DNA of 64,000 bases from Closterium sp. NIES-65 (taxonomy: Eukaryota > Streptophyta > Zygnematophyceae > Desmidiales > Closteriaceae): contig CANXME010000864.1 of the NCBI GenBank assembly GCA_948144175.1, positions 434,001 to 498,000 of the forward strand, given 5' to 3'. Shown here piece after piece: positions 84 through 62,350 of the stretch (position 1 is the stretch's first letter; each line of letters starts with the position of its first letter). The translations under genes and the position numbers were made by a program. Below the pieces are notes generated by a model. It made no database searches, was not told where the DNA came from, and saw nothing but the letters and a program-made list of their open reading frames with translations.

Positions 84-155
84 AGATGTTTCAAGCAACC
101 AACTGTCTGGCAGCATTCCTGCTACCATCAGCACACTCACCCAAGTTTCTCGCCT
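84..155 (+). CDS. LRR exon, type C (first in window)
   Basis: 72-bp exon between CAG and GTCAGT. Starting with one base and ending with two (phase 2), it reads [19 protein letters not shown], a canonical plant LRR of 24 residues. Upstream bases 1-35 do not match the corresponding flank of the other copies, so the array's homology begins near base 36. Confidence 0.6.
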
Positions 156-1289: not shown

Positions 1290-1323
<34 letters not shown>

Positions 1324-7300: not shown

Positions 7301-7447
7301 CAGCGGCGGGCTGCGTGGGTGCCTCCACACCTCTCCCCCGCACGGTCACCGGTGCGAAGAACGTAGGGGCAGGGACCAAACGCACCACCACGCTGACGCT
7401 GCAAGTACCACTCACGGAGCTCCTGAGGGGCGGGGACGGTGCGAGAG

Positions 7448-7479
<32 letters not shown>

Positions 7480-18050: not shown

Positions 18051-18099
<49 letters not shown>

Positions 18100-24000: not shown

Positions 24001-24220
24001 CAGCTCCCCCCAGCGGGGGATCTCAGCGGCCTCCGGAAACTGCTGACGCCAGGCGTCGGTCAGGCGGCCAAAGCAGCGGCGGGCTGCGTGGGTGCCTCCA
24101 CACCTCTCCCCCGCACGGTCACCGGTGCGAAGAACGTAGGGGCAGGGACCAAACGCACCACCACGCTGACGCTGCAAGTACCACTCACGGAGCTCCTGAG
24201 GGGCGGGGACGGTGCGAGAG

Positions 24221-24252
<32 letters not shown>

Positions 24253-27200: not shown

Positions 27201-30200
27201 TCTTCGCCCCTTGTCGAACACCCTCTTTTGCCGAACCGAACACTGTTCCGTTCAGCGAACAGTTTAGGAAAAAACAGGTGTTCGCTGTTCGCCTGTGGAG
27301 GCGTGTTCGGGCGAACCCCTAACACTGTTCGTGTTCGTCGCGGGCAAATTTCAGCAGCGGCCCAAACACGAACGTGTTCGGGCGAACATCGAACAGTGTT
27401 CGGCGAACGATTTGAGCTAAAAAACAAAACCTGTTCGGATCGCCTCGAACGTGTTCGAGGCGAGCCGAACAGGTGTTCCCCACCTTGCTCATCCCTAGTC
27501 CCTCATCTCTCTGTCTCGGACAGCTCCCTTGCTAACAACCAGCTCACCAGCTCCATCCTTGCTGGCATTGGCTTGCTGACAAAGCTGGTAACCATGTAAG
27601 GATCCATTGTAGGTGCTTCGGTCACATTCCTAGGCATGAGCAATAACCGAACCAAAACTACTTGCGCACCAGATGGGGGTGGAGAGTTTCAGAACTGCAC
27701 TCTTCAAGCCTTCAAGTCTTAAGGCACACGGGTTTTGCTCATGCCTTGATTGAACACCCTGATTGGGACAAGAGAGCTTGCCTGTCCCAAGTTTCTCGCC
27801 TGTCAGTTGCCCTCTTGTCTCGTGCTGTCAATTTCCTCTCACAGGAGAGCTTACTCATGATGAGCGCGAGCTAAGAACACAAGGGGGTGACTTTGATACA
27901 TACGTGTGTCCATGCAATGAAGTCATTCGTGGAGTGCACCCTTTTTCCATTGTTTTGAATGGATGGGTTGCTGTACTTCAAATGTGGTGCTCAGTTGAAT
28001 TCTCCTTACTTTGGTTAGCCCCACGATCTCTCTGTTCATCTTACTGCCCTAGTTTCATGAAACATTTTCCTTCAAAAAGCCCACCAGCAGCATCCCACTT
28101 CGCATACTGGTGCATCATCATCCTAGAGTGCTGGTCTGGTTCTTCCTTCTTGCATTCGTACGCAATGGCAGGTGCCTCGAGAGTAATCAGCTCACGGGTT
28201 CAATTCCTGTGGAGATTGGCTCTCTACTATCTCTGGCATCCCTGTAAGGCTCCTTTCTACCACACGAGCATAAGACTGGGCTAAGCTGGCTCGTTTTTGG
28301 GCCATGGAAAGCCAGTGGGCTGACAAGCCAAGCCGGAGTCTCCACTCGACGGGCCGGGCTGACTCGGCCCGTGGCTCGTCCGTCGTAGCAAGCCTTTGAT
28401 AATGTGTGATCCCTCCCCCCCAACCTACTATCTCGTCTCTCTCGAATTGGTCACCTTTTTGACCTCTACATTTCCTTCTCGTCACTGGCCCCATTCCCTT
28501 CCCTATCGTGTCCTGCAAACACGCCAATGAACTCATATTTTCTTTCCGTGCGTCCACCCACCACATCATCACCACAGCTCTCTCAACTCCAACTTGCTCT
28601 CAGGATCTTTGCCATCTGCAATCATAAAGCTCACTGCTCTTACATTCCTATAAATAATCCATTGTATTGTTTTTCTTTGTCAGAAACCTTTGCAGAGTGT
28701 GCAATAAAGGCTTTTGTAGTAGCACAAGTTAGGTACGATCAAGGGCTGAGCCAGGGCAGGGCCGGCACAAATCAAGGTGGGCAGCTTTCCAAAGACAGTG
28801 ATTCTTTGTGCTTGAACCACGTCGTTTTATTCCATTTATGTGCTCAAACATTCGTTCACAGAACAGTTAAGCCTTGGAAAGTCCGTTTACAGCATTTGTG
28901 ATTCAGGCCAAACTCGGGCAACCCTGTGACAAACCGCCCATGGCTGATTGGAACCCCACCTGGCCATCAGGCTGGTGAGGTTCAAAATGGGCCAACCCGA
29001 TTGATCCTTCCTCATGTCCAGTCTCATGCTAATAATCACCGTCCCACCTTCCTTCTCACCAATTTGTCCATCGCCCTTGCACGCCTCCCACGTGTCCCTC
29101 GTCTCCCTGTCTCGGACAGCTCCCTCGCTAACAACCGGCTCACCAGCTCCATCCCCGCTGGCATTGGCTTGCTGACAAAGCTGGTAGCCATGTAAGGATC
29201 CATTGTAGGTGCTTCGCCCACATTCCTAGGCATGAGCAATAACTAAACCAAAACCACTTGCGCACCAGATGGGGGTGGAGAGTTTCAGAACCGCGCTCTT
29301 CAAGCCTTCAAGTCTTAAGGCACACGACACGGATTTTGCTCATGCCTTGATTGAACACCCTGATTAGGACAGGTCGCTTGCCTCCAACCAGCTCAACGGC
29401 TCCATTCCGGCAGACATTGGCGCCCTCACCAAGTTGACAATTATGTAAGAAGATACGCTTTTGTTGTTCTTCTCACATCTCCTGTGCTCTCCCAGGACTC
29501 TTTCCCCCCCTTTTCAGTATAGCACGACCTCTTTGATCTCCCTCAGTTCTCCCCTATATCCCTTCACTTCCCTGTTTCGATTGCTCACTTCCTTTTCCCT
29601 TCATTCAGATCTTCTCTTCTTTCTTGTGATCAAATTCTCACAATATATTTTCTGCAAGTGGATGTCGTAATATCATAATTCCAATATTCGTGTTGCCTCA
29701 CATTCTTCTAGCATTTTGCCTCGTCTCGTCTTCTCCAAAGGACGACCATCTTCATATGCTAATCACCCTTTGTATGGTCTTACCCAACCTCATCGCTGTC
29801 CTCCCTCGCTTCAGTCTGGTCTTCTCTTGTATGCTACAACGTCACTGTAACCCCAGTGGTATTTTATAATCTGGCTTCATTTCAGAGCCGTTTCAAGCAA
29901 CCAGTTGTCTGGCAGCATTCCTGCTGCCATCAGCACACTCGCCCAACTTCTTTGCCTGTTTGTGACTCTCTACTCTAGTCTAGTGCTGTCAGTTTCCTCT
30001 CACAGGGGAGCTTCTTTTTTATGTTAAGCGTGAGCTAACAACATTAGGGGCGTACATGCATGCATTAAAGTATTTTGCGAAGCACCCATTTAGATCCCAT
30101 GATCAGAGTTGTGACTGGATGGGGTGTGGTGAAAAGTGGTGCTCAGATAAAATCTTCCTGGTGTAGTAGCCCCATTCTATTTCCCATCACAATATCACTG

Positions 30201-33200
30201 GTTTTTACTTACTCCCCTACTTTCATACATACACCAAATCCCGCGAGACTATCATCAGCCTTCTTCTCATCCTAGTGCTTGATCGGATCAACACGATTTG
30301 GTTCTGTGCAGTTTGGTTTGTTTTTTTCTGAATTGAGCCATTGTCCTTGAGCCACAAGTTTAGTACGGACCAGTTTGGGTGTGAATATAACCTTGAAACC
30401 AGAGAGTGTTGTAGCTTTATTTCAAGCTCTAATTTTCTCATAGTCTACGACGCCCCCTTCCACCTAGTCATGACCATGTGGCCCGACCTGACCCGACCCG
30501 ACCCGACTTGGCTGGGCCAGATGGGTTCCCGGGTCGGGCCAGCTTCGAGCCAAGCTTGTGGAGGGTCTGACCCGACCCGAGTTTTGAAATTCGGGTCAGA
30601 ACTGACCCGACCCCGGGTCGGGTCGGGTCGGGCCAGGCTGACCCGCCCTGTTACGGGGTACGGGTGTGTATTAGCTGTAGTGAAAAGTGCTGTGCATGCG
30701 GCGCCCGTCAATCAGTACGAATTGGTACTAGTTTATGTGCTGGGCCCACTTATGAACGGTGGTTGTTTTAAGACATGGCGCGTGCAGCCTCGAAGGTGAA
30801 ATCGCACTAGTAAAACGTGAACTCGTGAGTATACTATCCCACCAGTGCGGTCTCCTTTAATAGCAGAGTATCATCTTCATAGTAAATAGAAATGTCGGAA
30901 AACATGGTTCTGTAGGCTTTAAAATAGCTACTAGCTTAGCTTAGGTAACATTAGTGGCTGAAGTTTGGCTACTTTGGCGTGGCGCGTGCTCATGTTCTGA
31001 TGACCGTTCAATCCTCGACATCAAATTTATGTAGGGTTTCGAACCCTACAGAGTTGGCCCGGCCCGAATTCCCCGACCAAGACCCGATATCGGGTCGGGT
31101 CAATCCTGGCTCGAAACCCGTCCCGACTCAGCCCAAGTTCTGATGTCGAGGGACTTCTTAATCCTCGTCATCAAATTTGTCTAGGGTTTCGAGCCCTACA
31201 GAGTTGAAATCGGGTTGGGTCAATCCTGGCCCAAAACCCAGCCCTGACTCGGCCCAAGTTCTGTACTTGGGTCGGGTTTTAGCTCAAGTTCGATCGGGCC
31301 AACCCGCGCGGGGCACATTTCTGAAATCCCTGACCCGACCAGCCCTAAACCACAGGTCGGGTTGATTAGGTTTTCCCAACTTCCTTGCTCAAATGTATCT
31401 TAACAGTCTAATCAATAGAACTGCTGCTCTCACAACCACGGCCTCCATGTTTCTCTCCTTGAACATTTCACTATCGTTACACTGGCTGAAACAGAAAAAG
31501 GAGCTCTTATCTAAAAAGAACCATGGGAAACACACCAATGTTAGGCTATGAGGGAGCTGGAGCTTCGGCGTGGCTCGGATAGTTGTTGAAAACAAACCGG
31601 CCGAACAGAAGAACTGGTTCAATTTGTTGAAAGAAAAAAACGGCCACAAAAAAGAAAAACGGTATAGTTTGGGTAAAAAACGAACCGAACCGCGGTTATT
31701 TTTTGTGCTCATGCGTACTTTTATCATTTCACCTCACTACAACCTCAGTGGTGTTTATAATTTGGCATTCTTTTTCCACTCAGAGAGTTTTCAAGCAACC
31801 AACTGTCTGGCAGCATTCCTGCTACCATCAGCACACTCACCCAAGTTTCTCGCCTGTGAGTTGCCCTCTTGTCTAGTGCTGTCAGTTTCCTCTCGCGAGC
31901 TAAGGACACCAGGGTGTGAGTTTGATACATACGTGTGTCCATGCAATGAAGTCATTCGTGGAGTGCCCCCTTTTTCCATTGTTTTGAATGGATGGGTTGC
32001 TGTACTTCAAATGTGGTGCTCAGTTGAATTCTCCTTACTTTGGTTAGCCCCACGATCTCTCTGTTCTTCTTACTGCCCTAGTTTCGTGAAACATTTTCCT
32101 TCAAAAAGCCCACCAGCAGCATCCCACTTCGCATGCTGGTGCATCATGACTCGCCCTGTTACGGGGTACGGGTGTGTATTAGCTGTAGTGAAAAGTGCTG
32201 TGCATGCGGCGCACGTCAATCAGTACGAATTGGTACTAGTTTATGTGCTGGGCCCACTTATGAACGGTGGTTGTTTTAAGACATGGCGCGTGCAGCCTCG
32301 AAGGTGAAATTGCACTAGTAAAACGTGAACTCGTGAGTATACTATCCCACCAGTGCGGTCTCCTTTAATAGCAGAGTAACATCTTCATAGTAAATAGAAA
32401 TGTCGGAAAACATGGTTCTGTAGGCTTTAAAATAGCTACTAGCTTAGCTTAGGTAACATTAGTGGCTGAAGTTTGGCTACTTGGCGTGGCGCGTGCTCAT
32501 GTTCTGATGACCGTTCAATCCTCGACATCAAATTTATGTAGGGTTTCGAACCCTACAGAGTTGGCCCGGCCCGAATTCCCCGACCAAGACCCGATATCGG
32601 GTCAGGTCAATCCTGGCTCGAAACCCGTCCCGACTCAGCCCAAGTTCTGATGTCGAGGGACTTCTTAATCCTCGTCATCAAATTTGTCTAGAGTTTCGAA
32701 CCCTACAGAGTTGAAATCGGGTTGGGTCAATCCTGGCCCAAAACCCGGCCCTGACTCGGCCCAAGTTCCGTACTTGGGTCGGGTTTTAGCTCGGGTTCGG
32801 TCGGGCAAACCCGCGCAGGGCACATTTCTGAAATCCCTGACCCGACCAGCCCTAAACCACGGGTCGGGTTGGTTAGGTTTTCCCAACTTCCTTGCTCAAA
32901 TGTATCTTAGGGATGAGCAAAGGACGAACACGAACATGTTCGTCTTCGCCCCTTGTCGAACACCCTCTTTTGCCGAACCGAACACTGTTCGGTTCGGCGA
33001 ACAGTTTAGGAAAAAACAGGTGTTCGCTGTTCGCCTGTGGGGGCGTGTTCGGGCGAACCTCGAACACTGTTCGTGTTCGTCGCGGGCAAATTTCAGCAGC
33101 AGCCCGAACACGAACGTGTTCGGGCGAACATCGAACACTGTTCGGCGAACGATTTGAGCTAAAAAGCAAAACCAGTTCGGTTTGCCTCGAACACGTTCCA

Positions 33201-36200
33201 GGCGAACCGAATAGGTGTTCGCCACATTGCTCATCCCTAATGTATCTTAACAGTCTAATCAATAGAACTGCTGCTCTCACAACCACGGCCTCCAAGTTTC
33301 TCTCCTTGAACATTCCACTATCGTTACACTGGCTGAAACATAAAAAGGAGCTGTTATCTTAAAAGAACCGTGGGAAACACACCAATGTTAGGCTATGAGG
33401 GAGCTGGAGCTTCGGCGTGGCTCGGATAGTTGTTGAAAACAAACCAGCCGAACAGAAGAACTGGTTCAATTTGTTGAAAAAACGGCCGCAAAAAAGAAAA
33501 ACGGTATAGTTTGGGTAAAAAACGAACCGAACCGCCCTAAACCGAACCGCGGTTATTTTTTGTGCTCATGCGTACTTTAATCATTTCACCTCACTATAAC
33601 CTCAGTGGTGTTTATAATTTAGCATTCTTTTTCCACTCAGAGATTTTTCAAGCAACCAACTGTCTGGCAGCATTCCTGCTACCATCAGCACACTCACCCA
33701 AGTTTCTCTCCTGTGAGTTGCCCTCTTGTCTAGTGCTGTCAATTTCCTCTCACACGAGAGCTTTTCTCATGATGAGCGCGAGCTAAGAACACAAGGGGGT
33801 GACTTTGATACATACGTGTGTCCATGCAATAAAGTCATTCGTGGAGTGCACCCTTTTTCCATTGTTTTGAATGGATGGGTTGCTGTACTTCAAATGTGGT
33901 GCTCAGTTGAATTCTCCTTACTTTGGTTAGCCCCACGATCTCTCTGTTCTTCTTACTGCCCTAGTTTCATGAAACATTTTCCTTCAAAAAGCCCACCAGC
34001 AGCATCCCACTTCGCATACTGGTGCATCATCATCCTAGAGTGCTGGTCTGGTTCTTCCTTCTTGCATTCGTACGCAATGGCAGGTCCCTCGAGAGTAATC
34101 AGCTCACGGGTTCAATTCCTGTGGAGATTGGCTCTCTACTATCTCTGGCATCCCTGTAAGGCTCCTTTCTGCCACACGAGCATAAGACTGGGCTAAGCTG
34201 GCTCGTTTTTGGGCCATGGAAAGCCGGTGGGCTGACAAGCCAAGCCGGAGTCTCCACTCGACGGGCCGGGCTGACTCGGCCCGTGGCTCGTCCGTCGTAG
34301 CAAGCCTTTGATAATGTGTGATCCCTCCCCCCCAACCTACTATCTCGTCTCTCTCGAATTGGTCACCTTTTTGACCTCTACATTTCCTTCTCGTCACTGG
34401 CCCCATTCCCTTCCCTATCGTGTCCTGCAAACACGCCAATGAACTCATATTTTCTTTCCGTGCGTCCACCCGTGACCCGCCACATCATCACCACAGCTCT
34501 CTCAACTCCAACTTGCTCTCAGGATCTTTGCCCTCCGCAATCACAAAGCTCACTGCTCTTACTTTCCTGTAAATAATCCATTGTATTGTTTTTCTTTGTC
34601 AGAAACCTTTGCAGAGTGTGCAACAAAAGCTATTGTAGTAGCACAAGTTAGGTACAATCAAGGGCTGAGCCAGGGCAGGGCTGGCACAAATCAAGGTGGG
34701 CAGCTTTCCAAAGACAGTGATTCTCTGTGTTTGAACCACATCGTTTTATTCCATTTATGTGCTCAAACATTCGTTCACAGAACAGTTAAGCCTTGGAAAG
34801 TCCGTTTACAGCATTTGTGATTCAGGCCAAACTCGGGCAACCCTGTGACGAACCGCCCATGGCTGATTGGGACCCCACCTGGCCATCAGGCTGGTGAGGT
34901 TCAAAATGGGCCAACCCGATTGATCCTTCCTCATGTCCAGTCTCATGCTAATAATCACCGTCCCACCTTCCTTCTCACCAATTTGTCCATCGCCCTTGCA
35001 CGCCTCCCACGTGTCCCTCGTCTCCCTGTCTCGGACAGCTCCCTCGCTAACAACCGGCTCACCAGCTCCATCCCCGCTGGCATTGGCTTGCTGACAAAGC
35101 TGGTAGCCATGTAAGGATCCATTGTAGGTGCTTCGCCCACATTCCTAGGCATGAGCAATAACCGAACCAAAACCACTTGCGCACCAGATGGGGGTGGAGA
35201 GTTTCAGAACCGCGCTCTTCAAGCCTTCAAGTCTTAAGGCACACGACACGGATTTTGCTCATGCCTTGATTGAACACCCTGATTGGGACAGGTCGCTGGT
35301 CTCCAACCAGCTCAACGGCTCCATTCCGGCAGACATTGGCGCCCTCACCAAGTTGACAATTATGTAAGAAGATACGCTTTTGTTGTTCTTCTCATATCTC
35401 CTGTGCTCTCCCAGGACTCTTTCCCCCCCTTTTCAGTATAGCACGACCTCTTTTATCTCCCTCAGTTCTCCCCTATATCCCTTCACTTCCCTGTTTCGAT
35501 TGTTCACTTCCTTTTCCCTTCATTGAGATCTTCTCTTCTTTCTTGTGATCAAATTCTCACAATATATTTTCTGCAAGTGGATGTCGTAATATCATAATTC
35601 CAATATTCGTGTTGCCTCACATTCTTCTAGCATTTTGCCTCGTCTCGTCTTCTCCAAAGGACGACCATCTTCATATGCTAATCACCCTTTGTATGGTCTT
35701 ACCCAACCTCATCGCTGTCCTCCCTCGCTTCAGTCTGGTCTTCTCTTGTATGCTACAACGTCACTATAACCCCAGTGGTATTTTATAATCTGGCTTCATT
35801 TCAGAGCCGTTTCAAGCAACCAGTTGTCTGGCAGCATTCCTGCTGCCATCAGCACACTCGCCCAACTTCTTTGCCTGTTAGTGACTCTCTACTCTAGTCT
35901 AGTGCTGTCAGTTTCCTCTCACAGGGGAGCTTCTTTTTTATGTTAAGCGTGAGCTAACAACATTAGGGGCGTACATGCATGCATTAAAGTCTTTTGCGAA
36001 GCACCCATTTAGATCCCATGATCAGAGTTGTGACTGGATGGGGTGTGGTGAAAAGTGTCAGATAAAATCTTCCTGGTGTAGTAGCCCCATTCTATTTCCC
36101 ATCACAATATCACTGGTTTCTACTTACTCCCCTACTTTCATACATACACCAAATCCCGCGAGACTATCATCAGCCTTCTTCTCATCCTAGTGCTTGATCG

Positions 36201-39200: not shown

Positions 39201-42200
39201 ATTTCAGTCGATCTTATTGGGAATTGCCCCCAATCCCCTGCCCATCTGTTCCCACCCATTTTCTAATGTACTTAGAATTCTTGAGCTCCTTTATTAAATC
39301 AATCAAGTCTCGCTCAAGTTCTTACACATATCCCACTTCTGTCCATCCGTCTGGTATGTTTGTGCAGGCCAGAACAAAAACTACTCAAGCAGTCAAGCGG
39401 TTCTCCCACCAGCATCTATACTCACCAGGGGGGGGCAGCGCGAGACGAAGGGGAACTTCACCGCAGAGCCGGTGAAGTTGTTTGTGTACGAGGCAAACCA
39501 GGGACTGTCGCGGTGTGGGCTGCAGCTCGCCTTTCACGCCAACTTTACCTTCTCCCTCTTGCCTCGATCTGGCCACGTGGGCTTCAACGGCTTAGCGTTT
39601 GTCATCTCGGCAACGGACCAGGTGGGGAGTGGCGCTGGGGTGGGGTATGGTGGAATGGACACACGGAGCATGGCGGTGGAGTTTGACACTATACAGAACA
39701 AGGAGCATGGCGACATGAGCAGCCACCATGTCGGGCTGAACGTTCGAGGCGAAGACAGATCGCTAGTCGCTGTGAGGTCACCCTTCCGTCTGAGCAACAG
39801 GAAGGCGTACACGGCGTGGGTGGACTATGAGCCAGGAGACCCCGGCACCATCCAGGTCTTCCTGGCTGACTCGCAGGAGAAGCCGCAGCAAGCGGTGCTG
39901 GAGTGGAGGCTGGCGCTGTGTGAGGTGCTGCAGGGTGCAGTTGATCAGCCCGCCTTCTTCTTTGGCTTCGTAGCGTCCACCACTGTGAAGCCGTTTCAGC
40001 GGCACGTCATTCTTGAATCGACAGTGGATACAGGTAAGCAGTGTGTGCTTTCAGGTGGATGGGCTTGGCATGGTGGTTAACAACATGGGAGGTCCAGTCC
40101 GGAGGATGTAAAGGAGGTGGCAACGAGACTGAGGGAGTGGATGGTGATGTAAGGAATTGTGACGATGGGGGTAGTGCTGGTGAAGATGAGGTTAGCTCTG
40201 GCGCTGATGAGGTTACCGATGGAGGTCAATTTGAAAGTGACTGCAATTTGATATGAGTCACACATTTTCTGAATCTTACATGGTGTCTTCTATCTTCGCT
40301 CTGATTGCTTTGTCTTTGTGCAGGCCTTCCTGCTTCTCCCCGAACAGTCACACGTAATCCAGGTGAGACATCGTCTCCCATGCTTCTGTTGCGACTCTCG
40401 CAACTACCTCCGTTAGAAGGACAAAAGAGGCAAGCATTGTGACAGTGTGATGTTGGTGTTAGGCCCCAATCTCACATTTTGTACTTGTACTTTTATATCC
40501 TAGTTTAGTGTAGTTTGCACTTTGTGTTTGGTTGGGTGTACACCCACATCCCAACCAGACCCAAATGTAATCTCCAAGCAATCTCCAACCCACCAATTGG
40601 AGATTGCCTTGGGATTACCCTTGATTCCCTAGGATTGCCTCCTGATTCCCTCCTCATCCCTACCTTGCTCATTCCGGATGTACTAAAAGAGCTTTGAGCT
40701 CACTACTATAGTATCGATTCTAAGCTCAAGTTCTGACATGGTATCAGAGCAGCTCAACCGCATACGCGGATCGTGATCCTCTCATCTCTACGGATACTTG
40801 TCCTGCAAACCTCGGGGAAGCCATCGCCAATCTCGTCGCCGTTGATTCGCGACATTCATCGGCGGAATTCCTCCCGCCACATCTTCCCGTCACCATCGAC
40901 GGAAACTTCTCTGGTAAGCGCATCGTCGGCGCTCTAACCTAACACTCGTTTTCATCAATTCGTCACTCTCGTCACTTCTTCTCCTCGTCGGGCTGCCGCC
41001 CGTCGCCCTGCAGCTTCTCGTCGGGCCGCCGCTCGTCGCCCTGCAGCTTCTCTTCGGGCTGCCGCCCGTCGCTCTGCTGCTTCTCGTCGGGCCGCCGCCC
41101 GTCGCCCCGCAGCGTCATCTTCGGGCTGCCGCCCGTCGCCCCGCATCTGCACTCCTACCCCCATCCCCCCTCTTTCCCGCAGCTGAACTGGTGCAGCAAC
41201 GCAGCCGAGCAGCAGCGTAGCCGCGAAGCCGAGCAGCCGTGTAGCCGCGAAGCCGAGCAGCAGCGTAGCCGCGAAGCTGAGGGTGGTGTGTGGGGGGGTG
41301 TGTGGGAATAGGATTAGTAGGTAGTAGACACTAAATTGGCGTCTCAGTCAAATTCTCCTTCAGAAACCCTAAACCTCAATATTCTCTTTCGTAAACCCTA
41401 AACCTCCGGTTCTTCAAAATTTCCTTTGGAAACCCCAAACCTCAAGTTCCTATCGGTGACTTAAGAGCGGCGCTCCGCGTGAGAAGTTAAGGGGTCTCCA
41501 CCATGGCTTTCTCGTCTTCCACCATGGCGAACCCCATCACCCCGCTCCGCCTTGAAGCCGATGGCTCTAGCTCCAACTTCAAGGCGTGGAGCTACGGAGT
41601 TGACAAGCACCTCCTGAGCCGTGACGTGCAGGGCCTTGACCTCAAGGACGTCTTCCTCAACCGTGGCAAGGGGAAACAGCCCACTCTTCCCCGTGAACCG
41701 ACCGAATCTTCAAGTGATGCTGACGTGATGGCGTACGAAGAAGCTGTTGAGAAGTACCGGAAGTGGGAGAAGGCCGATGCTGCCATCATCAGCGTCTTCA
41801 TTGCCTCCACCCCTCCCGAACTTGTCAACACGTTCCACAACTACCCTACCTCCAACGCCATCTGGAAGTATCTCCAGGATCGGTTCATGAACAAGACGGC
41901 GGTCGGAGTGGCGATTCTCATCCCCAGCATGTTTCAAGTCCGTCTTGAGGACTGCTCAGGAATGGCTGACTACATCGCCAAGGTGCAGACCATTCATGGT
42001 GAACTCAAGGAGCTGGGTATAGTCTTCCCCGAACAAGCCCCTGCAGCCGCCCTTCTTGTTGGTCTCTCCTCGGCATATGAAGTCACGAGGAAGATGCTCC
42101 TCGCGCTCTCAGCGGAAGACCTCACCTTTGCTAAGGTCTCCACCGCACTCCTCTCTGCCGAGAAAGACTCCATGGCTCAGGCCAAGGCATACGCCATCCG

Positions 42201-45200
42201 TGCTCCCATGCCCTCAGCAAGTGTTGCAGCGGCCCTTGCCTCGGCGCCTTTCCAGCGCAACCGCTTTCCTCCGTGCACCTACGTCGTCAAGTATGGCAAC
42301 CGCAAGGGACAAGTGTGTGGTGGCACTAACCACCCCCTTGCCACGTGCTTCAAGAAGAAAGACGACGAGTGGTATGCCATCCACGGGGTTGACAAGAAGC
42401 CGCCAAACTGGATGCGCGCTCGTAAGGCCAATCTCGTTGAGGTCCAGGACCCCTCTTCGGCTAGTGCTAGTGATAGTGCTCCTGTTGATGTGCGTATCAA
42501 CCTGTTGTTTCCTGGCACTGCCATGATTAATGAAGCCACTTCCCAGTACATCGACTCATCACAGGCACCACAGTACATAGAGTTCACACTCGACAGCGGG
42601 GCCACTCACACTGTGCTCAAGGAGACACTCTCCTTCAAACCCTATCCAGCACCTATCCCTCTCTTGGGAGCTGACTCCAGCTTCACCACCCTAGCCAAGG
42701 GCACCTCCACAGTCCCATGCCCAGCCTTCCCTTCCGGCACCGTCACTGGAATGTGCGTGCCTTCACTACGCCACAATCTAGTGGCTCAAACAGAAATTCA
42801 GAAAGCAGGGCTACGCACCATCTTCTCGGAGAATGAGGACCACTGCGACATCATTGACCCACTCACCAACAAGGTCTTGGCCCGCTTCACCCTCAATAGC
42901 AGCGGCCTCTACACGCTACGCGTTCCTCTCCCACAGGTTTCAACCACCCAAGCACAGGCTCCCATCACACCATGCACATGTCGCAGCCTTTCCAACCCGA
43001 CCATCCTCTATCATCATCGGTTAGGGCACCCAAACTTCCGCACGCTTGCTGACATGGCCTCCAAGAAACTTCTTCTCGGCCTGCCAGCCACACTTCCTCC
43101 ACCACCTGACTCACCCGCTCCCACGTGCCTTGATTGCACCAAGAGCAAACTGCGCCAACAGCCCCACACTGCCTCACCCACAATCGCAGCGGCACCACTG
43201 GACCTAGTGCACATGGACGTCTGGGGCCCTGCCCCTGTTCTTGCACGAGGTGGATATCGCTACTTCCTAGTTATCGTGGATGACCACTCACGATACGTCT
43301 CTGTTCACCTCCTCCACACTAAGGCTGAGGCTCCAAAGGTCATCATGGCGTGGGTCAAGCAGGCACAGACCACCTTTGACCGCAAGGTCAAGCGCCTTCA
43401 CTCGGATGGGGGGGGTGAATTTTGCAACGACAAGCTCAAAGCCTTCTGCTCCTCCGAAGGCATCCAGCAAAACTTCACCCTCCCTGACAGCCCTCAACAG
43501 AACGGCATAGCTGAGAGCCGCAACCACACCCTAGTGCAGATCACTCGGTGCCTCCTCAGCCACTCCAACGCTCCACACTCTCTCTGGGGATACGCTCTCT
43601 ACCACGCCGCCCTCCTCTACAACCTTTACCCCCATCCGCACCTTCCCGACACCACTCCAACCACACTCTGGCTCGGGAAAACGCCCACTGCTCGCTCTCT
43701 TCGCGTTTGGGGATGCACCGCCTATGTCCTCCTCAACCCTCAGGCTCGACGCCAGAACGGTGGCAAGCTCGGTCCCAAGACTCAAACGTGCATCTACCTT
43801 GGGCACAACGCCGACTCACCTGACTACCTCTTCCTCAATCCCTCCACTCAACAGTTGGTCAGGAGCCGCGACGTTGTCTTTGATGAGACCCGCCCATTCT
43901 ACTCCCCTTCGGGACGGGACCCTCTCCCTGATCCACCCTCCCTCGTGTGGGCAGACTTTGACGCGCCTCCCGACCTCCCGCCTGCTCCTGCCCCCTCACC
44001 TCCTCCCTCTACTGCCATCCCACCATCTCCCTCTGAGGTCTCTGACCCGGCCTCACCGGTGTCTTCGGCAGCTGCTCCGCCCCCCCCCTCACCTTCCTCA
44101 CTTCCCGCTGCGCCGCCCCCTCCGAGCGCACCTATCACCTACCATCGGCGGTCCCACCCTCCGGCCCCACCTCCTCCCCCAGTTCCCCCCACCACAGAGG
44201 AACCCGCTCTCCCACAGTCGCCCGAGCTGATCACGTACCGCCGGCGGCCCATTCCCCCACCCAAGCCTCCTAAGTCACCCTCTCCGACACCGCCTGCCCC
44301 ACCCTCCTCACCGGTGGCTCATGGCACCCGCTCCCATCGCGCTGCTCTTCCACTCGCAATGGTTCTTCGATACACAATGATCACACCGCCTCCTCCTGCT
44401 GGGGGGGATGTGCCCTCTACCCTTCTAGAAGACAGGCATGAGGAGCTGTGTGATCTCCATGCAGTCATTCCTCAGCTCTCACACATCTTCCCCGATATCA
44501 CTGGCTCACCCTCCCTCAACCTCGCGGAGAACCCGACCATCCCTATCCCTCTCACCGTCCAAGAGGCTCTCTCAGGCCCTCATGCTGCCGAATGGCGTGC
44601 TGCCATGGACGCGGAGATTGCAGCATTCACTCGCAACCACTCCTTCGACGACGAGACTCCACCTCCAGGAGTCAACATCGTCGGGGGCAAGTGGTTGTTC
44701 CGTGTAAAATAGCTCCCAGACGAGGCACCGGTGTTCAAAGCGCGTTACGTAGCCAAGGGCTTCACCCAGCAGCGGTACCGCCACTTTGACCTAATCTTCT
44801 CCCCCACATCCAAACCTCCCACCATTCGAACGCTCATGGATGTTGCAGCTCGAGAAGACTTTGAGATCAAATCCATGGATGCCTCCTCCGCCTTCCTACA
44901 AGGACGTCTCAAGGAGACAGTGTTCATGGACAGACCAGAAGGCTTCCCAGGAGAATTCCCTCCCAACACTGTCTGGAAGCTGAATCGCCCCATCTACGGC
45001 TTTAAACAAGCCCCTCGCGAATGGCACAACAAGGTGAAAGAAGTCCTCCTCTCCCTGCACTTCCACCCCTCAACTGCTGACCCGACTCTCTTCATCCGTC
45101 GTCATTCTGAGCCATTCTACATCCTAGTCTACGTGGATGATTTTATCCTCGTTGCCAAGGACTCGGCCCAAATGACCTCAGTCCAGGCAGCCCTGAGCAA

Positions 45201-48200
45201 GGCCCTCCAGATGAAAGACCTCGGTGACCTCAAGCACTACCTGAGAATGGAGATCACTCGTGATCGCAAGGCTCGCACCATCTCACTCTCCCAGGAGTTC
45301 TACATCGACAATGTGCTCAAGCGGTTTGAGATGGAGCTGTGCACACCTGTTGCCACCCCGCTGCCGCTGCAACACCTCCTTACAGCTCCTGCTGTACCCA
45401 CACCAGAGGCCTGCTCTGAGCCATACCCGGAACTTGTTGGGTCCCTCATGTACGCCATGATGTGCACCCGACCGGACTTGGCCAACCCAGTCAGTGTTCT
45501 CTCTCGTTACGTGGCCCCGGGTCGCTTCACTAATCTTCATTGGAAGGCAACAAAGCGGGTGCTGCGCTATCGTAAGGGCACAAAGTCCCACGTTCTCACA
45601 CTCGGTGGGCTCTCCCCTCCTCGCCTGGAAGGTTACACTGACTCCTCCTGGGCTGATGACCAGACCGACCGACGCTCCTCTCAGGGGTACTGCTTCACCC
45701 TCGGGAGCGGAACTGTCAGTTGGCGCTCCACCAGGTCGTCTGCAGTCTCCCTCTCCTCCTGTGAGGCGGAGCTCTACGCAGGCACCATGGCTGCTCAGGA
45801 GGCCCGTTGGCTCACCTTCCTACTCCAGGAGCTTGGCTTCCCTCAGTCAGCCCCCACCCTCTGGTGTGACAACCAGAGTACCATCCACATCTCTCAAGAC
45901 CCTGTGTATCACACCCGCACCAAGCATATTGAACTTCGGCACTTCTTCATTCGTCACCTTGTGCAACAAGAGCAGCTGAAGGTGGAATACGTGGCATCTG
46001 ACTGCAACCTGGCTGACCTGTTCACCAAGCCCCTTGGGAAGGTTCCCCACCATCGTCTCCTTGGTGCCATGGGGCTCTGCGCTCCTCCTTCTCCGCCATG
46101 AGTTCGATTGACGCCTCAGGGGGGGTGTTGGTGTTAGGCCCCAATCTCACATTTTGTACTTGTACTTTTATATCCTAGTTTAGTGTAGTTTGCACTTTGT
46201 GTTTGGTTGGGTGTACACCCACATCCCAACCAAACCCAAATGTAATCTCCAAGCAATCTCCAACCCACCAATTGGAGATTGCCTTGGGATTACCCTTGAT
46301 TCCCTAGGATTGCCTCCTGATTCCCTCCTCATCCCTACCTTGCTCATTCCGGATGTACTAAAAGAGCTTTGAGCTCACTACTATAGTATCGATTCTAAGC
46401 TCAAGTTCTGACATGTGATTGTTATTATCATCTTATAATGTGTACAGACGTTTCCCCTCGCGTTTGTTTATCTTTCCACATGTATCCTTCACTCTCCGTC
46501 TTACCATGTTTTTCTTTTCTTCTGGAGGTTCTTTGTACTAAATACTCATGCATTCAGTACATTGGGTGTAAGAAAGAAGAATAACCTAGACAGTGTGGTT
46601 GATGGTGCACAGCACGGTGGTTGATGGTGCACAGCACGGTGCGCATAAATCTGAAGCAAACTGGAAAATGGAGAAGCTGAGCAACTTCGTTCATGGAATT
46701 AGGGAAGCGAATTTTTTATGAGAGACATGCATGAACCACGCTTGAACGGAGTGCTTGTTTGGTGGATGTTGTAATGACCACTTGAGGTGCAGATGTTATT
46801 GGATAAGGGTTGCAGTTCAGCAACGTTAGGGCAATGCACCCCAGACCATTGTACTCATTATCCCCCTTCAAGTTCTATCTTGTAACAACTTGTCACTTTC
46901 ACATCTCATTCCTTTCTCTATAATTCAACTTCTGAGCATATCACAGCCTATGGCCTGCAGCTATCAACGAACACATACATGCCAGAACGGGCCAGCCCCT
47001 TCCCGCGCTATGTGAGTGCGGACTACCGTGTTGCGACCAGCAAGCAGGACTCGTGGGTCATCAGCGACTTCCACTCCTGGGACTCCGTGCCCTTCCTCGG
47101 CTGGCCCGTCAAGGACCAAAGAGACTGCAGTGAGTGAAACCAATGGGAACCTGTAGAAGCATATTGGAGCTGATAGCTGGGCTGGTGTCTTGGTTAGTTG
47201 CTACAATCTGCGTCTTTCCATTTGCTGTTCTGCTGCTGGTCACTATCATGTTTCAACTATCGCACAATAATCAGGGCAATATGAGTCTTCATCATTTTTC
47301 AGCCGTCATCGCATGAGCTTCAATTTTTCACGAACCAATTTTCATCATACGCAGGTGCTTGTTGGGCGTTTGCGCTGGTGGCGAGTGTGGAAGCGGCATA
47401 CGGCATTGCCTTGAATGCACAGGCACCGCAGCTGTCAGTGGAGTCACTCTTTGCAGCCATGGGGCTCACCTCCGAAGCTGACAAGTGCAGCACGGGGGGC
47501 TCCCCCACCGAGGCGTTGGAAAGGCTTCTCATGCTGCCTCGCGGTGGAGTCACAGAGGTTGGAGCGCCTGTGAGTAGTGTGGTGAAGTGTGATTCTAAAG
47601 ATTTGAAGTGGTGTGCCCGACGTTGAGAGAGTTGCGACTATACTTCAACTAGTGATATGAGGACTGTCTCTAAGTTGGAATATACGCGTACAGCGTATAT
47701 TCGCGTATCGTATATACGCTAACGTACATACGCTATCCGCTTAGGGGTTCGTTTTGGAGATACGCCTTTTCGGGCAGAGAAAAAACTTTCCGGGCAGGGT
47801 GAAATAAAAGTACTCCCTATTCTCACTAAGGCTTGGCCTTGCATAATCCTGAATCCGAATGATGAATGCAATGGGAGGTGGAGTAGACGTAATAGCTAGA
47901 AAGCGAAGTAGCGTGAGTGAACTCTAGTGAAAGCGGGAACCAAATGACGAGTTAGGGTTAGCCAACAGGGCTTGCAGGTAAGTACCGCGAGATTTGTTGG
48001 GGGGTTAATTTTGACAGGTTGGAGTTCGTAGATAAAGTGGGGTTCAATGCGGTAGAAGGGATGGATTTCAATGCCTAGATGGGATCTGAAATTCAACATT
48101 TGCCTGACGACTTTGTCAGATCCCCGTTTCCCTGGACCGCGGATTTGAATTTCGACTACGGCGAAATGCTCACCTAGGAAATCCGCATATTTTTTGCGAT

Positions 48201-55660: not shown

Positions 55661-57104
55661 AAACGGTTGAAAACAGATAAGAGAAGCTCGTCAGGAGCAA
55701 GAGTGAGAGATATGTCCATGTGTGATGCAATCCGCTCAATCCCGAAGCTATTGTTATTCAAACGACCGTCATCTGTGACGCACCCTGCGGTCTCGCCACA
55801 TTCGTACGACCGTCAGATCCACAGCTCGTCGGACCAACTGGGATTCGAGAGTATTCCGGTAATTGATGTCGGTTGCTGCAAAAATCTTCTCGAATTCGCT
55901 AAAGCCAGCCAATAGTACCTTCACTCATTTTCATATTCGCGAGGCGGAAAGGCTGGTCGGAACACTCTCCCGATAGATTACTTGACTCTAACAAGACTGT
56001 GATCGCTAAGTAAGCTGTGATCGTGATCAATGAAATATTATCAGGCCAAACATGCGACGCTTTCCGATTCATACGACGCTATGCGACGTGTTCCCAATGC
56101 CCGTGCCATGCGAGGCTTCTGCAATTGTGACCATCGTTCTCTACATCCAATCATGCTCAGTCGTATGGGATAGATAGAGTGCTTGACGAACATGCTTATC
56201 GCATAAGACGCTGCCCGCCATCCTAGGACCGCCGATGCGTCGCCTGAAGACATTGAATGCTACCATGGAATCGGTGACCATGTCCAATCAGAAATGTGAC
56301 TGGACAAGCACAATCAGACCGTCCGTTTCTGATGAAGTCTAATCGGGTGTACAGTAATACTCGACGATGTGTCTGTTGATGTAAACTGTCGTCTCGCGAC
56401 GACCTAGAGTCGATGTTGCCATGGCCGAAAAGCGAATGCCTGATGAGATTTGTCCCCTCCTCGCTCTTTCATTCGGTGGCAGCCCCAAAACAACCCAATT
56501 ATATACACACGGGTGACGTCATCACATGCCGCCCCGCCCCGCCTGGCACAAAGGGAATTGAGGCAAAACGAAAAACCCTACGAATCCCTCCGGGCCCCCA
56601 GAAATTCCCGGCTGACCAGGCCAAAAAACCCTCCGAAACCCGCGGGTTCAATGTCGTATTCTTATTCTCATATATATGTCGGCTGAACTGTTGCAATTTC
56701 GGGGACATTTGTCGAACAGTGCTCGACGGACATTGGCCAATCGCCGTCGAGCACCGTGCACCCCCGACAACACTTTTTACACCCGGTGGCATGTCGCCCA
56801 CACGGTGGCGCTGACGGTCGACGGTTGCGAAATACCAACTGTCACAATCAACAGAGACGTCAACTGCGGCCGACCTGTCGCCTCGTCGGTCGACCGAACT
56901 GTCGCTGTCGGATGGGCGACGGGTTACGTCTGTCGGAGTCAAACGTTCACGTCAACTGCTGACTGCCACGTCAAATGTCTCAGTCTCCACCGGGAGCAAC
57001 ATCAGCCCAAGGTCACTGTATAAACCTGAATTCATAGTAGAAGCACCACACTTTCCTCAGCAGGCCAGGATTTAGGGAGAACTGCTAGCCTTCGGTGGGC
57101 ATTG
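55661..57104. other. Upstream flank of the recombinase gene
   Basis: No recognised gene. From about 56.3 kb the words TCGAC/GTCGA become very frequent and remain so to about 60.6 kb, suggesting that this composition belongs to the element. AATCCCTCCG at 56,583 is the left member of a motif found inverted at 61.5 kb. TATATATG lies at 56,671. Confidence 0.4.
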
Positions 57105-59745
57105 ATGGAGACCGATCCGTCGACGACAGCGCCTTCCCGGCAGGCGGACGTAGGACGGATACCTGTCGAATTGGAGTCCATCTCGACACCACCCCCTTCG
57201 TCGTCTGGAGCCACGCCGGTTTCTTCCGCGCCCCCTTCGACGACGCGTGCCATACCGGAGGTGGCAGCGCCCACCTCGACATCGCGAGCCATACCGGTAG
57301 TAATACAGCCGGTTGTTACGGACCAGCGTTCGACGGGTATTCCGGTCACTGTTGAAGTGGGTGGTGCACAGACCGAATTCCCTTCGACAGGTCAATCCAT
57401 ACCTGTTGTCGTAGAACCCATCTCGACAACAAATGCCTCCTTTACACACGAGGCTCCTGCTCACCGTGCACCATCGTCGACAGCCCACCGCTCGACGGAA
57501 CCTTCAGCTGGTGCACCGACCTCGACAGGTGGGCGACGTAGGAGAGCGAGGGCTGTTCCGCCTGAGGTTCGCCAACCACCCCCTGCCGGACACATCCGCT
57601 TCTCGAGCCGGCCCCGCCGCTCCTAGGCGCACTTCGACGAGACCAAGCAGAGAGGACTTAGCCAGGAACGTCCCTGAAGCGACGGACGATGACGATGTTT
57701 GGACGGGAGAACAGCAGGAGGCGGACGATGTCGAACCGCCAGACCCTCTGCGGCCTGCTGCGGCAAATATCTCAGAGGAGGATGCCGCGCACATTCTCGG
57801 CGACCAACTGGGCGCAGACAATCCGTACTTGGCGACCGGAACACTTAAAAGCAGGATTCTCCGGTGTGAGGTTCCGCTGCTGGGAGTTGACCAGGATTCC
57901 ACACGGCCGAACTATGTCTCTGGAAGCATGCACTACAAAGCTTGGGCCTGTAAAATTCTGGCACCCGAGGGAAGCAACGGAGTGCCTAAAGAGGAGCAGG
58001 TGATCTACGAGGACGAGATCGGTAGGGAGATCGGCGACGATATGGGGCCGAGATGGAGGGAGGCGCTGCGTAACGAGGAGCACCTGCATGGGCCGAAAAT
58101 AACAAAGTGGCGCTTGCGCGCGTACGTCGAATACATGTCGAGTGAAACCGACCAACAGGTGGCTTCGTTGGACACAGGCCGGACCAGAGTCGCTGGAAGG
58201 AAGGCGAAAAAAAGCACCCCTCCGATGATGCTGGCGCGCCTTACTGCCCTGACGTGCTTCTGCAGAGTAGAGGCCATACTCTTCGACGAGCCACTAACGA
58301 AACCCTTGGACGACATCACCGAGGCCCGGCAGCTTCTTGCGGTCAAGCTGTGGTAGCTGCACGACTTTCAGTTCGAGTAAGTAGGCTGCCATACACCGGA
58401 CTCTAAAACTTTTCACTCAAATTCTCACCCAACTACTCGCTGTATCTGCCCACTCAATGCAGGCAGTGCGTCGATCCACACTGGGGCTCGCTCGACGATG
58501 TTTACATGGAGGAGCAGTTCCGCATTCTCGTTTCAGACATCTTGCCGTACTAGGCCAAGGAGTACTTTCGGGAGTCGATGAGTTACCCCAGTCAGTCGCT
58601 GTGGAGGGCCTTGGCCGTGAGGGTGATGATCCTGATGGCGCATCACATGCTGGGCAGGGGGATAAGCATCCGCGAGATCCGCTACTGCAATATGTTCACT
58701 CACGTCCTTCCGCCCATCACGAACAGCAAGGGGGAATCGTCTATCCACGTTCTCGTGGTCGCCTATCGCAACTCGAAGACCATCAAAGACAACAAGCTCG
58801 GCCACCTATACCTGACTCGACACATGGACTTCCGGCAGTGCGACTTCGGAGCAGTGTTCATGTGGATACATTTCATTTTCGACCTTGTGCCGCTCTACTA
58901 CAACAACGATAAGATCGTGCCCCCCTTGGATTTCACCAACCCGGAAAATTGGTCAAAGAAGCACCTGTTCTTCGCCCTCTTCGACAAAGACAAGACCGAG
59001 TTGCCGTACGCGACTCATGCCAAATGGGTTACCTGGGCGATGAAAAGCGCGGAGTGGATCCTGTCGAAAGTCACACATATCTTTCGACGGTCTGCGGCAC
59101 AGATCCTCGCCGACAAAAACTGTGAACTCGACAACATCGCGCAGCTGGGTCAATGGGACATGAACGAGATGCGCAGGTCATACGTCACAGGCATCCCGCG
59201 CGGGGCCATCCAGCTGCAAGCGGGTTTCACGACGGAACCGGGTGACTATTACCTTGGAAGATCGAAGAGCGAAGTACCCGCGAAGGTCTTGAAGGCTATC
59301 GAGGAGCACATATTTCCAGAGGCGGAGCAGTGGCTCGACGAGGTATGGATGCGTCGAGCGCATAGCGTGATCATCGAATGCAAGTTTTGCCCATCTATCT
59401 CTCAATGTCACCACGTTTGTTCTTGTTCAGGCGATGGAATGGAACAACGAGCAGGACAAGGAGCATATGTTCTTCGCAGCGAAAAGTTTCTTGAAGGCCC
59501 TGCAAGCCGTCCGAATGCCCATCGCCGAGGATCTTGCGATGTACTACGTCCATTGTGACGACCACCCCTTCGACGGAGTGACTGTTTGCGACTGCGAGCG
59601 TCACCCTTATGTACAGATGTCCGGTTTGTGCAAGGACATGGATTTCCAAAAATGGGCGCTTGACGTGTACCCACTCGACAAATACGTCATCGAGATGCGG
59701 ACCAACCCCACGCTGTCGAAAGCTTCGGTAAGATGGCCCTTCTAA
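57105..59745 (+). CDS. Crypton-like tyrosine recombinase, 3-4 exons, one TAG
   Basis: The N-terminal part from ATG 57,105 is Ser/Thr/Pro-rich with IPV-type repeats. A change of frame (intron or frameshift) occurs before about 57,626. Exon to 58,352 then exon 58,463-59,342 (GTAGCT...TGCAG) and exon 59,431-59,745 (GTATGG...TTCAG), phases matching, stop TAA. The catalytic arginine is in HHMLGRGISIREIR (58,656-58,658). Next is a basic strand, NSKTIKDNKLG. Catalytic H and R are in THIFRRSAAQIL, W in QLGQWDMNEM, and the nucleophile Y in RRSYVTGIPR (59,181-59,183). The order, spacing and the PRGAIQLQAGF tail match fungal Crypton recombinases (also GCR1-related domains). One in-frame TAG at 58,551-58,553 lies before the catalytic region. 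Confidence 0.7.
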
Positions 59746-60797
59746 GAAGGCTGTAGGATGAAGTCGTCCCATTTCGACAGAATCCGGCGCACCCCATGCA
59801 CGACACGAGCTGCCGCGCCGTTTTGATAGGGGCTTGACAAGGCCGTCGTCGTCTGCAATGGGTACAAAACATACGTAAGCGACAAAACACATGCTCGACG
59901 AAAACGCTGTTGGTCTAAGGAGAGCTTACCAGATGGTCGAAATCCTCGTTCAACTCCAGACGAAGGTCCATCACCTTCAACACTTCTTGGTCGTCCTCGG
60001 TCAGAGCCTGGTGGGTCATCGCGTACTCGGTGCGAAGCTGCTTCTTCATCCACCTGCGACGCAGAGGACAGAAGAGTAAGATTGTCGAGAACAGCAGCTC
60101 GACAGCAGGGTTGCAAAGCTGTCACTCACACGAAAACTTCTTGCGCCAGAGAAGATTGGTGGTTCATATCGGGAAACTTGTCTTTCGAATCGAAGTGCAT
60201 CATTCCAGTTCGACTGCCACGGTGCCTCGGAGCCAGCAGATCATCGGGGCGCGATACCACAAACAGGCTCGAGTGGGAGAACGGAGGCACACTCAGTCTG
60301 CATGCACAGCCAATGCACGTGAGAACGGGTTCAGGGCTAAAGACGGAGCACGCAAGGCGACGGGAGAGTGTCGAACTCATGGTGTTCGCAGCAGAACGAA
60401 AACCACTTGCTTGCCGAGGAGGCCGTCGAGGTGGTTGTTCGCAAAAGCGACCGGGGTGGGACGGGCCATCTCTTCAAGCGCACGCGGCGGAGTCACGATC
60501 GACACCTTGGGGAACTGCTCGACGGAGAGCAGCTCATGACAGAACAGGCTGCATGGAAAGCTAAGTCAACATCAGCGATTGGTAAACCGAAACATGGCAA
60601 ACCGAAAATGTTCGACAGGACACGTACACGATGCCCGCGACCATCATGCTCTCGTTGAACTCCCCTTTCGGCGCCTCTCTAATCGCATTCAGCTGGTCCT
60701 CGAACACCTCCACCTCGACCCCGCCTGCACTAAGGATGAGGCCGCGTCGAACCGTGGCCTCGTTCATGACGGGTACGGAGGCGGGGCCCGTAGCCAT
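59742..60797 (-). CDS. Second gene of the Crypton-like locus, possible Ulp1/C48-like protein
   Basis: Exon 1 60,797-60,628 (ATG, 170 bp, donor GTGTAC variant), exon 2 from 60,548 to about 60,417, a middle exon around 60,340-60,130, exon 60,054-59,930 and last exon 59,852-59,742 (TAG). GEFNESMMVAGIV joined to LFCHELLSVEQFPKVSIV, then VPPFSHSSLFVV...GMMHFDS and SPYQNGAAARVVHGVRRIL, follow the order of the Ulp1 fold (start helix, H...L.VV...F/YDS, Q-NG...). The position expected to hold the catalytic Cys reads A. Assignment is weak and the middle junctions are unresolved. Confidence 0.35.
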
Positions 60798-62350
60798 GTC
60801 TGTTCTAGCAGTGGAGAGGGCGGACGCGCAGGGGAGTTGGGAACTAGCAAGGACTAGGAAGTAGGGAAGCAAAAATCGGAAACAGCAACAAAATGAGACC
60901 GGACGCAGGGTATTAGCTGTTTGCCATCTCTCCCACAGCGACGGACCAGGGGGGTTCAAGGGCGAGGAGGCAGGGCGCGTTCCGAGACGTGGGAGGAGGA
61001 GGGAGGCCGGCGGGGCCCCATTGGCCTCGACGTGAAACCTTGTCGTTGGGGTGGGCAGCCTTGCATGCAGCCGAAAGGCCCCTTCCAAGGTTCGGGAGGG
61101 GGCCTTCGACACGTCGCCAAGATCAAGCGGCTTGAACAAAACGGGCCCGTCTAGGGCGAGAGCGGTGGAGCGCAGCGCAGATGGGCGTCGCTTTCGTCTG
61201 GCCGGCGAAATATCGCGGACTGGTTCCGTCGGCGAGGCGTCGCTCGGGGAGGGACGGGTGGGTTACCTGACGGAACCCGTCGACGAACTGAGCGGGGGGT
61301 TGGGCTCGGTTTGGGAGGGGGACCACTGCCAGCTCGAGGGCGCAGGCTGCTGGCGCCAGCTGGGGGTGCCGGTTTTCGGGCGGGAGGGGGGGGGTGGCTC
61401 CCGCCCCTCGCGTGCCCCGCTAGGCGACTGCGGGAAAACGAAAATCCCTCCGAGGAAAACCCGCAGGGGCGAACGGGTTTTCGCGGAGGGATTCGGGCGA
61501 TGTCTTCCCAGATTCACCCCCAGTTACAAACCAGCAACTTCCGCCTCCAATCAAATTCGATCTTTCGCTGCTTCCGAGATGTAACCGCAAGCATTCTCAC
61601 ACTGTCGTTACCTGCTGTTACGTTTCGCCAGGCTCGCCAAGTTCCCTGGAGAAAGTTCTTTTGATGCAGAGCAGCAGCAGGCTAGCTAGCTGTCCTGTCA
61701 CGTCAGCAATAACAGAAATCCGTTAGGCGAGACTGCCTGGCACAGAATTCGCGTAGACTTCCAGCTAGTCTCACGCATACATCAGCGATACGTCAGACAT
61801 CCTCCTAACTAAACTCTTCTGGCGTTCCAAAGAGCAGCACATCTGCTGCCTTGATCCTGATTGCGTTTCCAAATATCCCCAGCTATGAGTGCGGCGGCTA
61901 GTATGGCTAGACTGGCAGCGCACCGACGGCCGGAAAGCTTTCCGAGTCGTCACCGAAATCCGCCTTTGAATTTTGAATAATAATGAATTGGAACATTCGA
62001 GGCTTACAGAGCCACACTGGAAAGACGGGCCGCGGATTTCAAAGGTGGATGGTTCTTAGCTCGTGGTGCTTCCGCGACCGATAGTGAAGCCTTAGGTTCC
62101 GCAGAAATTGGAAAACCACGCGATGCTGGCGAGAGCAGCGGCCTTGTGCAAGCAGAGAGGAGAGGGAAAAGGATCGGCGGGGGCACCATGCGTTGCGGCA
62201 GGCGGCGAGACGGGCGGGGACACATCAACATCGGCGGCGTTGGTGGTAGCAGTGGCGGCACCGGGGAGCCGGGGGAGGAGGGCGAGGGGCCGGTGAAGGG
62301 GGGTTGCTGGTGGGGCTGGCGGGCGATTGACATACTCGAAGTCTCCAAGT
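60798..62350. other. Region right of the Crypton-like locus
   Basis: GC-rich to about 61.5 kb, then ordinary. Open frames on both strands overlap and have no recognised domain. No RNA gene seen. Confidence 0.4.
61440..61496. repeat. Near-perfect hairpin at the right side of the Crypton-like locus
   Basis: AATCCCTCCGAGGAAAACCC (61,443-61,462) pairs with GGGTTTTCGCGGAGGGATT (61,476-61,494) with one or two mismatches and a short loop. The same words occur once near 56,583 and at 56,630-56,647. Confidence 0.6.

Follow-up and report, generated by a model that had tools for sequence, protein, structure and literature searches.

A decayed, internally deleted copy of a probable two-gene Crypton-type DNA transposon in the streptophyte alga Closterium

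Results

The recombinase gene

The window, by which we mean the whole 64,000-nucleotide stretch analysed (C863:434001-498000 in the genome searched for copies), comes from Closterium sp. NIES-65, a zygnematophyte and thus a single-celled streptophyte green alga close to land plants; the first-pass annotation, which had spoken of a plant-type genome, was right as to the plant lineage, but the host is not a land plant. Two genes that face each other lie in the segment whose features are collected in Table 1. The plus-strand frame at 58554-59558 scores 46.5 bits against Pfam NDC10_II, above the cut-off of 26.3, which bears out the earlier reading of a Crypton-like recombinase, and the catalytic R, H, R, W and Y as well as the PRG...AGF tail are found in the order and at the places at which they had been read (codons R 58656, K 58776, H 59076, R 59085, W 59154 and Y 59181). 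Among 19 sequences, R116, K156, W282 and Y291 (P0002 numbering) are invariant and H256 and R259 nearly so. NDC10_II was matched at E<=0.1 by 29 of the 35 aligned family members, and Phage_integrase, weakly, by 11 of the 35 (best E 0.013). The NDC10_II match together with the catalytic residues supports the identification of the product as a tyrosine recombinase.

In the complete copy L009 four exons make up the recombinase gene, whose product of 1,171 aa begins with a low-complexity part that contains the 105-bp tandem repeat; the catalytic domain follows, and after it come a Cys/His-rich stretch, a coiled coil and a helical, conserved C-terminal region. The introns are plausible because the annotated protein P0002 aligns to the complete copy exon by exon and because the splice sites of the window, when applied to L009, yield one open frame. 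AlphaFold gave a mean pLDDT of 52.2 for P0002 and 35.6 for the window frame, with no confident recombinase domain in either model; in P0002, most of the catalytic domain falls within residues 1-319, where values were <50, and ten-residue means of 79-92 were obtained in most of 561-690 and 711-740, corresponding to much of the C-terminal region and part of the coiled coil. Foldseek with the P0002 model returned nothing at E<=0.001. The structure prediction that the first-pass annotation had named as a refuting test thus weighs neither for nor against the recombinase.

The C-terminal region resembles GCR1_C by eye; this identification was rejected for lack of a Pfam match, as none was obtained at E<=1 in the L009 tail exon or at E<=10 in five C-terminal regions from five members, in a search in which HMMER filters drop most weak matches. 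The captain of Starship elements is a DUF3435 recombinase, and DUF3435 was absent among the Pfam matches listed (for family members, 25 of 32 families). By sequence the PDB held no relative of the window frame, the family profile drew 17 weak PDB matches that fell mostly in the coiled-coil part, NCBIfam gave weak matches only, far under their cut-offs, and none of seven pattern matches to viral relatives was confirmed. Every homologue, whether of the spliced recombinase (44) or of the family profile (55, from scoring the 7,994 candidates with most words in common), bears the name Closterium; no homologue outside this genus was found at the thresholds used among the candidates scored. Three annotated Closterium proteins that match the recombinase (P0028, P0050 and P0066) also have the retroelement domains PF00665/PF25597 or PF07727, and are probably nested insertions or merged gene models.

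Table 1. Features of the element copy in the window (positions in the window)
Feature	Position	Strand	Basis or remark
Whole element, internally deleted copy	56495..61509	+	Ends placed by comparing 11 copies (9 other insertions) from other contigs
Left terminus, CCN then ATTATATACACACGGG	56495..56513	+	CC in 14/14 insertions; ATTATATACACACGGG in 12/14, L014 and L026 each differing by one base
Recombinase exon 1, broken here	57105..58376	+	One-base insertion near 57590, TAG at 58354; open in L009 (window against L009)
Unit of ~105 bp in exon 1, tandem in other copies	57229..57336	+	About 1 to 7 units by copy; comparison of copies
Recombinase exon 2, catalytic domain	58463..59342	+	TAG at 58551 here; Pfam NDC10_II; R-K-H-R-W-Y
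Recombinase exon 3, Cys/His-rich stretch	59431..59727	+	
Junction of 4.4 kb internal deletion	59745..59748	.	Last recombinase exon and partner 3' part missing
Partner exon 5, cut off by deletion	59748..59852	-	
Partner exon 4	59930..60053	-	
Partner exon 3	60130..60297	-	Present in homologue P0047, absent from annotated P0045
Partner exon 2	60381..60548	-	Following donor AT here, GT in L009; comparison with L009
Partner exon 1	60628..60797	-	Homologue P0045
Right terminus, GTCTTCCC	61502..61509	+	Identical in 10/10 insertions with right end read

An internal deletion and other lesions

The window matches complete copies over about 56,495-59,745 and 59,748-61,509, and the 4.4 kb between these parts is missing; the junction reads CTTCTAA-GA-AGGCTG in the window, against CTTCTAATTTTT... 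and ...TCGAGGCTG in L009. The TAA that ends the recombinase frame in the window is intron sequence of the complete copy, and the TAG of the partner was created by the deletion junction. The two-base overlap of TAG and TAA, which had been given as a property of the gene pair, is therefore a scar of the deletion and not a compact gene arrangement: complete copies continue past 59745, and in L009 the stop codons are about 200 bp apart, the recombinase stop ending at element position 4378 and the partner stop at 4577. The window copy is further damaged by the one-base insertion and the two TAG codons of Table 1, which interrupt the plus-strand gene as first read, and by AT in place of GT at the partner donor (60380-60379). 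A reading of TAG as glutamine was ruled out, as the corresponding codons of L009 specify Gln and Trp.

The partner gene

The partner gene of L009 has six exons and encodes 1,258 aa. Five homologues were found at E<=0.1, all from Closterium; in strain Yama58-4 the partner homologue P0045 and the recombinase P0006 are each on a contig of 733,423 bases. With these homologues, and with a facing counterpart in a recombinase family only 43-48% identical (see below), the convergent gene proposed earlier proves to be a real opposite-strand gene, but one that is truncated here by the deletion. When the whole protein was scanned with Pfam, the middle part included, no family reached its cut-off. An Ulp1/C48 protease, suggested by HSSLF...HFDS...NGAAAC, was rejected: there was no Pfam match, and the presumed catalytic Cys is not kept, the residue being R in the window, L009 and P0048 and C only in P0045. 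An AP2-like fold for the conserved partner segment was seen by eye only and was likewise discarded, as Pfam gave no AP2 match; by sequence, this segment matched PDB chains named Scone and Cake, plus unrelated proteins. For the partner the likeliest role is that of an accessory protein that binds DNA and would act in the control of synapsis, target choice or silencing, a guess that we place well short of an even chance.

These data bear on whether the locus might be a CryptonF element derived from fungi or oomycetes, with a C48 (Ulp1) peptidase as its second gene. The yeast protein Cbf2/Ndc10, the namesake of NDC10_II, is described as CryptonF-derived, and, according to the same source, CryptonF carries GCR1_C and the CryptonF and CryptonS of oomycetes can add a C48 peptidase (PMC3212892). 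Against such an origin stand the lack of a GCR1_C match in the five C-terminal regions (subject to the HMMER filters mentioned), the lack of a C48 match for the partner, whose presumed Cys is an arginine in three sequences, and the lack of matches outside Closterium among the candidates scored. We consider this origin unlikely; as neither GCR1_C nor C48 was detected, the element fits neither CryptonF nor the C48-bearing oomycete forms.

Base composition and other features of the window

The locus had been described as TCGAC-rich, and a count over both strands gives 56 such sites in 5 kb, whereas 16.3 would be expected according to dinucleotide shuffles. All 11 complete loci have 10.5-11.9 TCGAC per kb, about eight times denser than the 1.41 per kb in 29.7 kb of flanks. 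Selection on individual sites was rejected as an explanation, since 707 of 747 TCGAC sites are kept (94.7%) vs 1592 of 1696 (93.9%) for CG-containing permutations. A locus of the distant family described below, L042, is not similarly rich (about 3.4 per kb from summed bins), and we treat the richness as a subfamily trait. L040 and L041, of a family 75% identical, have TCGAC very dense in the 5' region, up to 15 per 500 bp. Near the left element end, 56716-56757 forms a palindrome with 21-bp arms that are 86% complementary and has TCGAC on both sides.

Elsewhere the window contains a tandem duplication of about 16.8 kb (36-17943 and 16798-34739, 99.6% identity). According to Pfam, the first unit has a DUF659 frame and a frame of the Copia type (gag, rve); the frames of the second unit are equal in length. 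A frame with a legume-lectin domain (79.4 bits) is located at 39298-40080, and a Copia-type retroelement at 41491-46101 is open save for one in-frame stop just before 44713 (Pfam on the first frame only). Rfam gave no match within the window.

Copies of the element in the genome

The genome searched for copies comprises 874,075,685 bases in 2,400 contigs and contains at least 120 matching places (120 of 598 candidates were scored). Sixty-nine of the 120 scored matches are >=90% identical to the window frame, a count that includes the window and some pieces of one copy, and 39 constitute a distant set with 43-49% identity. We compared 21 loci, the window and L009-L028, and obtained right ends for 11 of them. 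The window and L022-L025 represent one insertion with flanks in common, and L014/L015, L018/L021 and L027/L028 are twin pairs, the last with 400 bases of flank in common. By left flank the 21 loci comprise 14 different insertions, which rules out segmental duplication as the sole source of the copies. Many genes of NIES-65 are reported to be duplicated though the cells are haploid, and aneuploidy or segmental duplication was suggested (PMC10407611); this fits the several loci that occur as twins and explains the existence of an empty twin site.

Complete copies are about 9.56 kb long (9,455-9,608 bp; 11 loci covered end to end, 9 insertions) and encode, according to the L009 models, the recombinase of 1,171 aa and the facing partner of 1,258 aa. 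Pairwise differences among the 11 complete loci are 0.06-5.0%, the lowest value being that of a twin pair, and 0.7-5% between insertions. Ten copies were examined for gene state, L015 being left out as the twin of L014, and both genes were without stops or frame-breaking gaps in two of them (L009 and L010). Among young copies the recombinase has a mean dN/dS of 0.60 and the partner one of 0.55, only mildly below 1; these values were computed with partner exon 2 starting 12 bases further upstream than in the final model.

Element ends and the target site

The alignment of copies, which the first-pass annotation had proposed as a way to find ends and target sites, gave sharp ends, with CC at the left of every insertion. 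In the ten insertions read at both ends, the left end is xCCN followed by ATTATATACACA (ATTATTTACACA in L014); on the right the element ends in GTCTTCCC, immediately followed by flank. The base preceding the left CC is C in six insertions, A in two and T in two, and is always C on the right; therefore the right CCC is element-borne. The N is identical to the first right-flank base in six of the ten. The sequence common to both ends is thus 2-4 bp long: CC in 10/10 insertions, CCC in 6/10 and CCCN in 4/10. The terminus table of the ten insertions holds no terminal inverted repeats, and in the outer 300 bp of L009 the sole inverted match of at least nine bases is GAATCCCTCCG, 88 and 16 bp inside the ends. 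Neither the ten insertions nor one empty site revealed a consistent target duplication, which is ruled out by the 4/10 insertions that have ACC or TCC in the left flank and nonetheless CCC at the right end.

The single empty site, a twin of the L009 site, is at C2059:51623-51938 (97% over a 320-base query). It reads CATTTCAACCCCTACTTCC, against CATTTCAACCCA followed by ATTATA and GTCTTCCC followed by CTACATCC in the filled site. Removal of the element and one CCC from the filled L009 site gives the empty sequence, save for one base and a 6-base gap (121 bases of flank); the insertion at this site is clean and within CCCC. At the position of the A in the filled left end the twin has C, and the A therefore arrived with the element or arose later. 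The comparison, made at one site, fits a short-overlap strand exchange. The recombinase would cut out the element as a circle, with CCC/CCN at the joint, and an exchange of strands with CC in a target would insert this circle; the base N that follows the left CC would lie in the exchanged overlap and be retained from the old or the new site. The element appears to be mobilised by its tyrosine recombinase in a Crypton-like mode.

Elements of the DIRS/Ngaro type likewise depend on a tyrosine recombinase and leave no target duplication, and a retroelement of this type could be considered for these reasons. The recombinase and partner frames, however, fill most of the 9.56 kb and gave no reverse transcriptase match, and we hold such an assignment to be extremely improbable. 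We give as little credit to a recombinase gene that has been domesticated and stays at one place. The domesticated relatives described in PMC3212892 likewise have spliced genes and an NDC10-like domain, but the many copies with different flanks, the empty site and the decayed copies refute domestication for this element family. A fixed, single-copy syntenic place, which the first-pass annotation had named as evidence for domestication, is excluded by the many flanks and the empty site, and the multicopy history of a mobile element is borne out by the matches and the 14 insertions described above.

A distant family with a facing gene

In L042 and L043, which belong to the distant family, a relative of the partner detected by tblastn (E 1e-23, 46% over 102 aa) lies downstream of the recombinase and runs on the opposite strand. 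For this family the partner (96 codons) shows differences of 0.44/0.33/0.58 at codon positions 1/2/3 and the recombinase (90 codons) of 0.37/0.36/0.60, which, judged from the sequences compared, is a protein-coding pattern in both genes. The two-gene layout is considered old because the recombinase family of 43-48% identity also has the facing partner gene. The middle part of the partner differs between the families, and no partner match was found in the 10 kb fetched of each of L040 and L041, the loci of the 75% family; this counts against universality of the partner, unless the gene lies beyond the fetched stretch. L042 and L043 have a sharp left boundary at about position 1430, starting GGGACTCTTACC. 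P0053, of the distant family, belongs to a 90% cluster of 46 member sequences whose representative is named NIES-65, so that this family is numerous too.

The missing match in the 75% family, the divergent middle part and the absence of a known domain would each agree with a facing gene that was captured from the host, or is a neighbouring host gene, and rides along in one subfamily. Such a gene would not be expected to have a relative in the same facing place next to so distant a recombinase, nor to lie inside the sharp element ends in 11/11 complete loci, and we regard this explanation as quite unlikely.

Discussion

We conclude that Closterium very probably has a two-gene DNA transposon of the Crypton type and that the locus in the window is a decayed copy of it with an internal deletion. 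The best reading of the element is that of a new Crypton-type lineage with a streptophyte alga as its host. A bolder version, which we hold to be unlikely, is that this is a deep new Crypton-type lineage of the plant line in which the facing partner is obligatory, the conserved C-terminal module of the partner being a DNA-binding protein for sites scattered along its own element (perhaps TCGAC in this subfamily) that would assemble the recombinase or keep the element unsilenced. A high-copy, young two-gene family in an alga near land plants would widen the range of the Crypton class. With copies in which both genes are open, and with an empty site, direct tests can be made of how the element transposes and of what the second gene does. 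No report of a streptophyte Crypton was found among the literature matches listed; Repbase and most subscription papers lay outside the search, and absence from print is not established thereby.

The Crypton superfamily in general is reportedly the subject of Goodwin 2003. Cryptons were characterised by Kojima and Jurka in 2011 as tyrosine-recombinase elements with no terminal inverted repeats and with 4-6 bp direct repeats (PMC3212892). Fungi, animals, oomycetes and a diatom are given as their hosts in Table 1 of that paper, and the legend of the Crypton tree also names Chlamydomonas sequences (PMC3212892). Like the members of this superfamily so described, the Closterium element lacks terminal inverted repeats and target duplications, its two ends share a very short sequence, and an R-H-R-Y tyrosine recombinase is the only transposase recognised in it. 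It differs from them in its streptophyte host, in its length of 9.56 kb and in having two facing genes kept over a deep split. The likeness to NDC10_II is shared with CryptonF, Cbf2/Ndc10 and Gcr1; the Closterium recombinase retains all the catalytic residues, whereas the yeast proteins are described as having lost them (PMC3212892).

Unlike CryptonF as presented there, the Closterium recombinase has no detectable C-terminal GCR1_C. It resembles CryptonS in having a conserved C terminus other than GCR1_C, and the element resembles both CryptonS and a C48-bearing oomycete CryptonF (CryptonF-2_PS) in having an extra gene besides the recombinase, although its partner, in contrast to that of the C48-bearing oomycete Cryptons, is without a C48 signature. 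The ends also differ from those published: CC, at times CCCN (2-4 bp), is shared in Closterium vs 4-6 bp in the Cryptons described, and the termini are CCN-ATTATA and TTCCC vs TATGG in the majority of CryptonS. Bacterial elements of the Tn916 type carry a coupling sequence from their former site, and the base that the Closterium element would have carried from its own former site would resemble such a sequence, reduced here to a single base.
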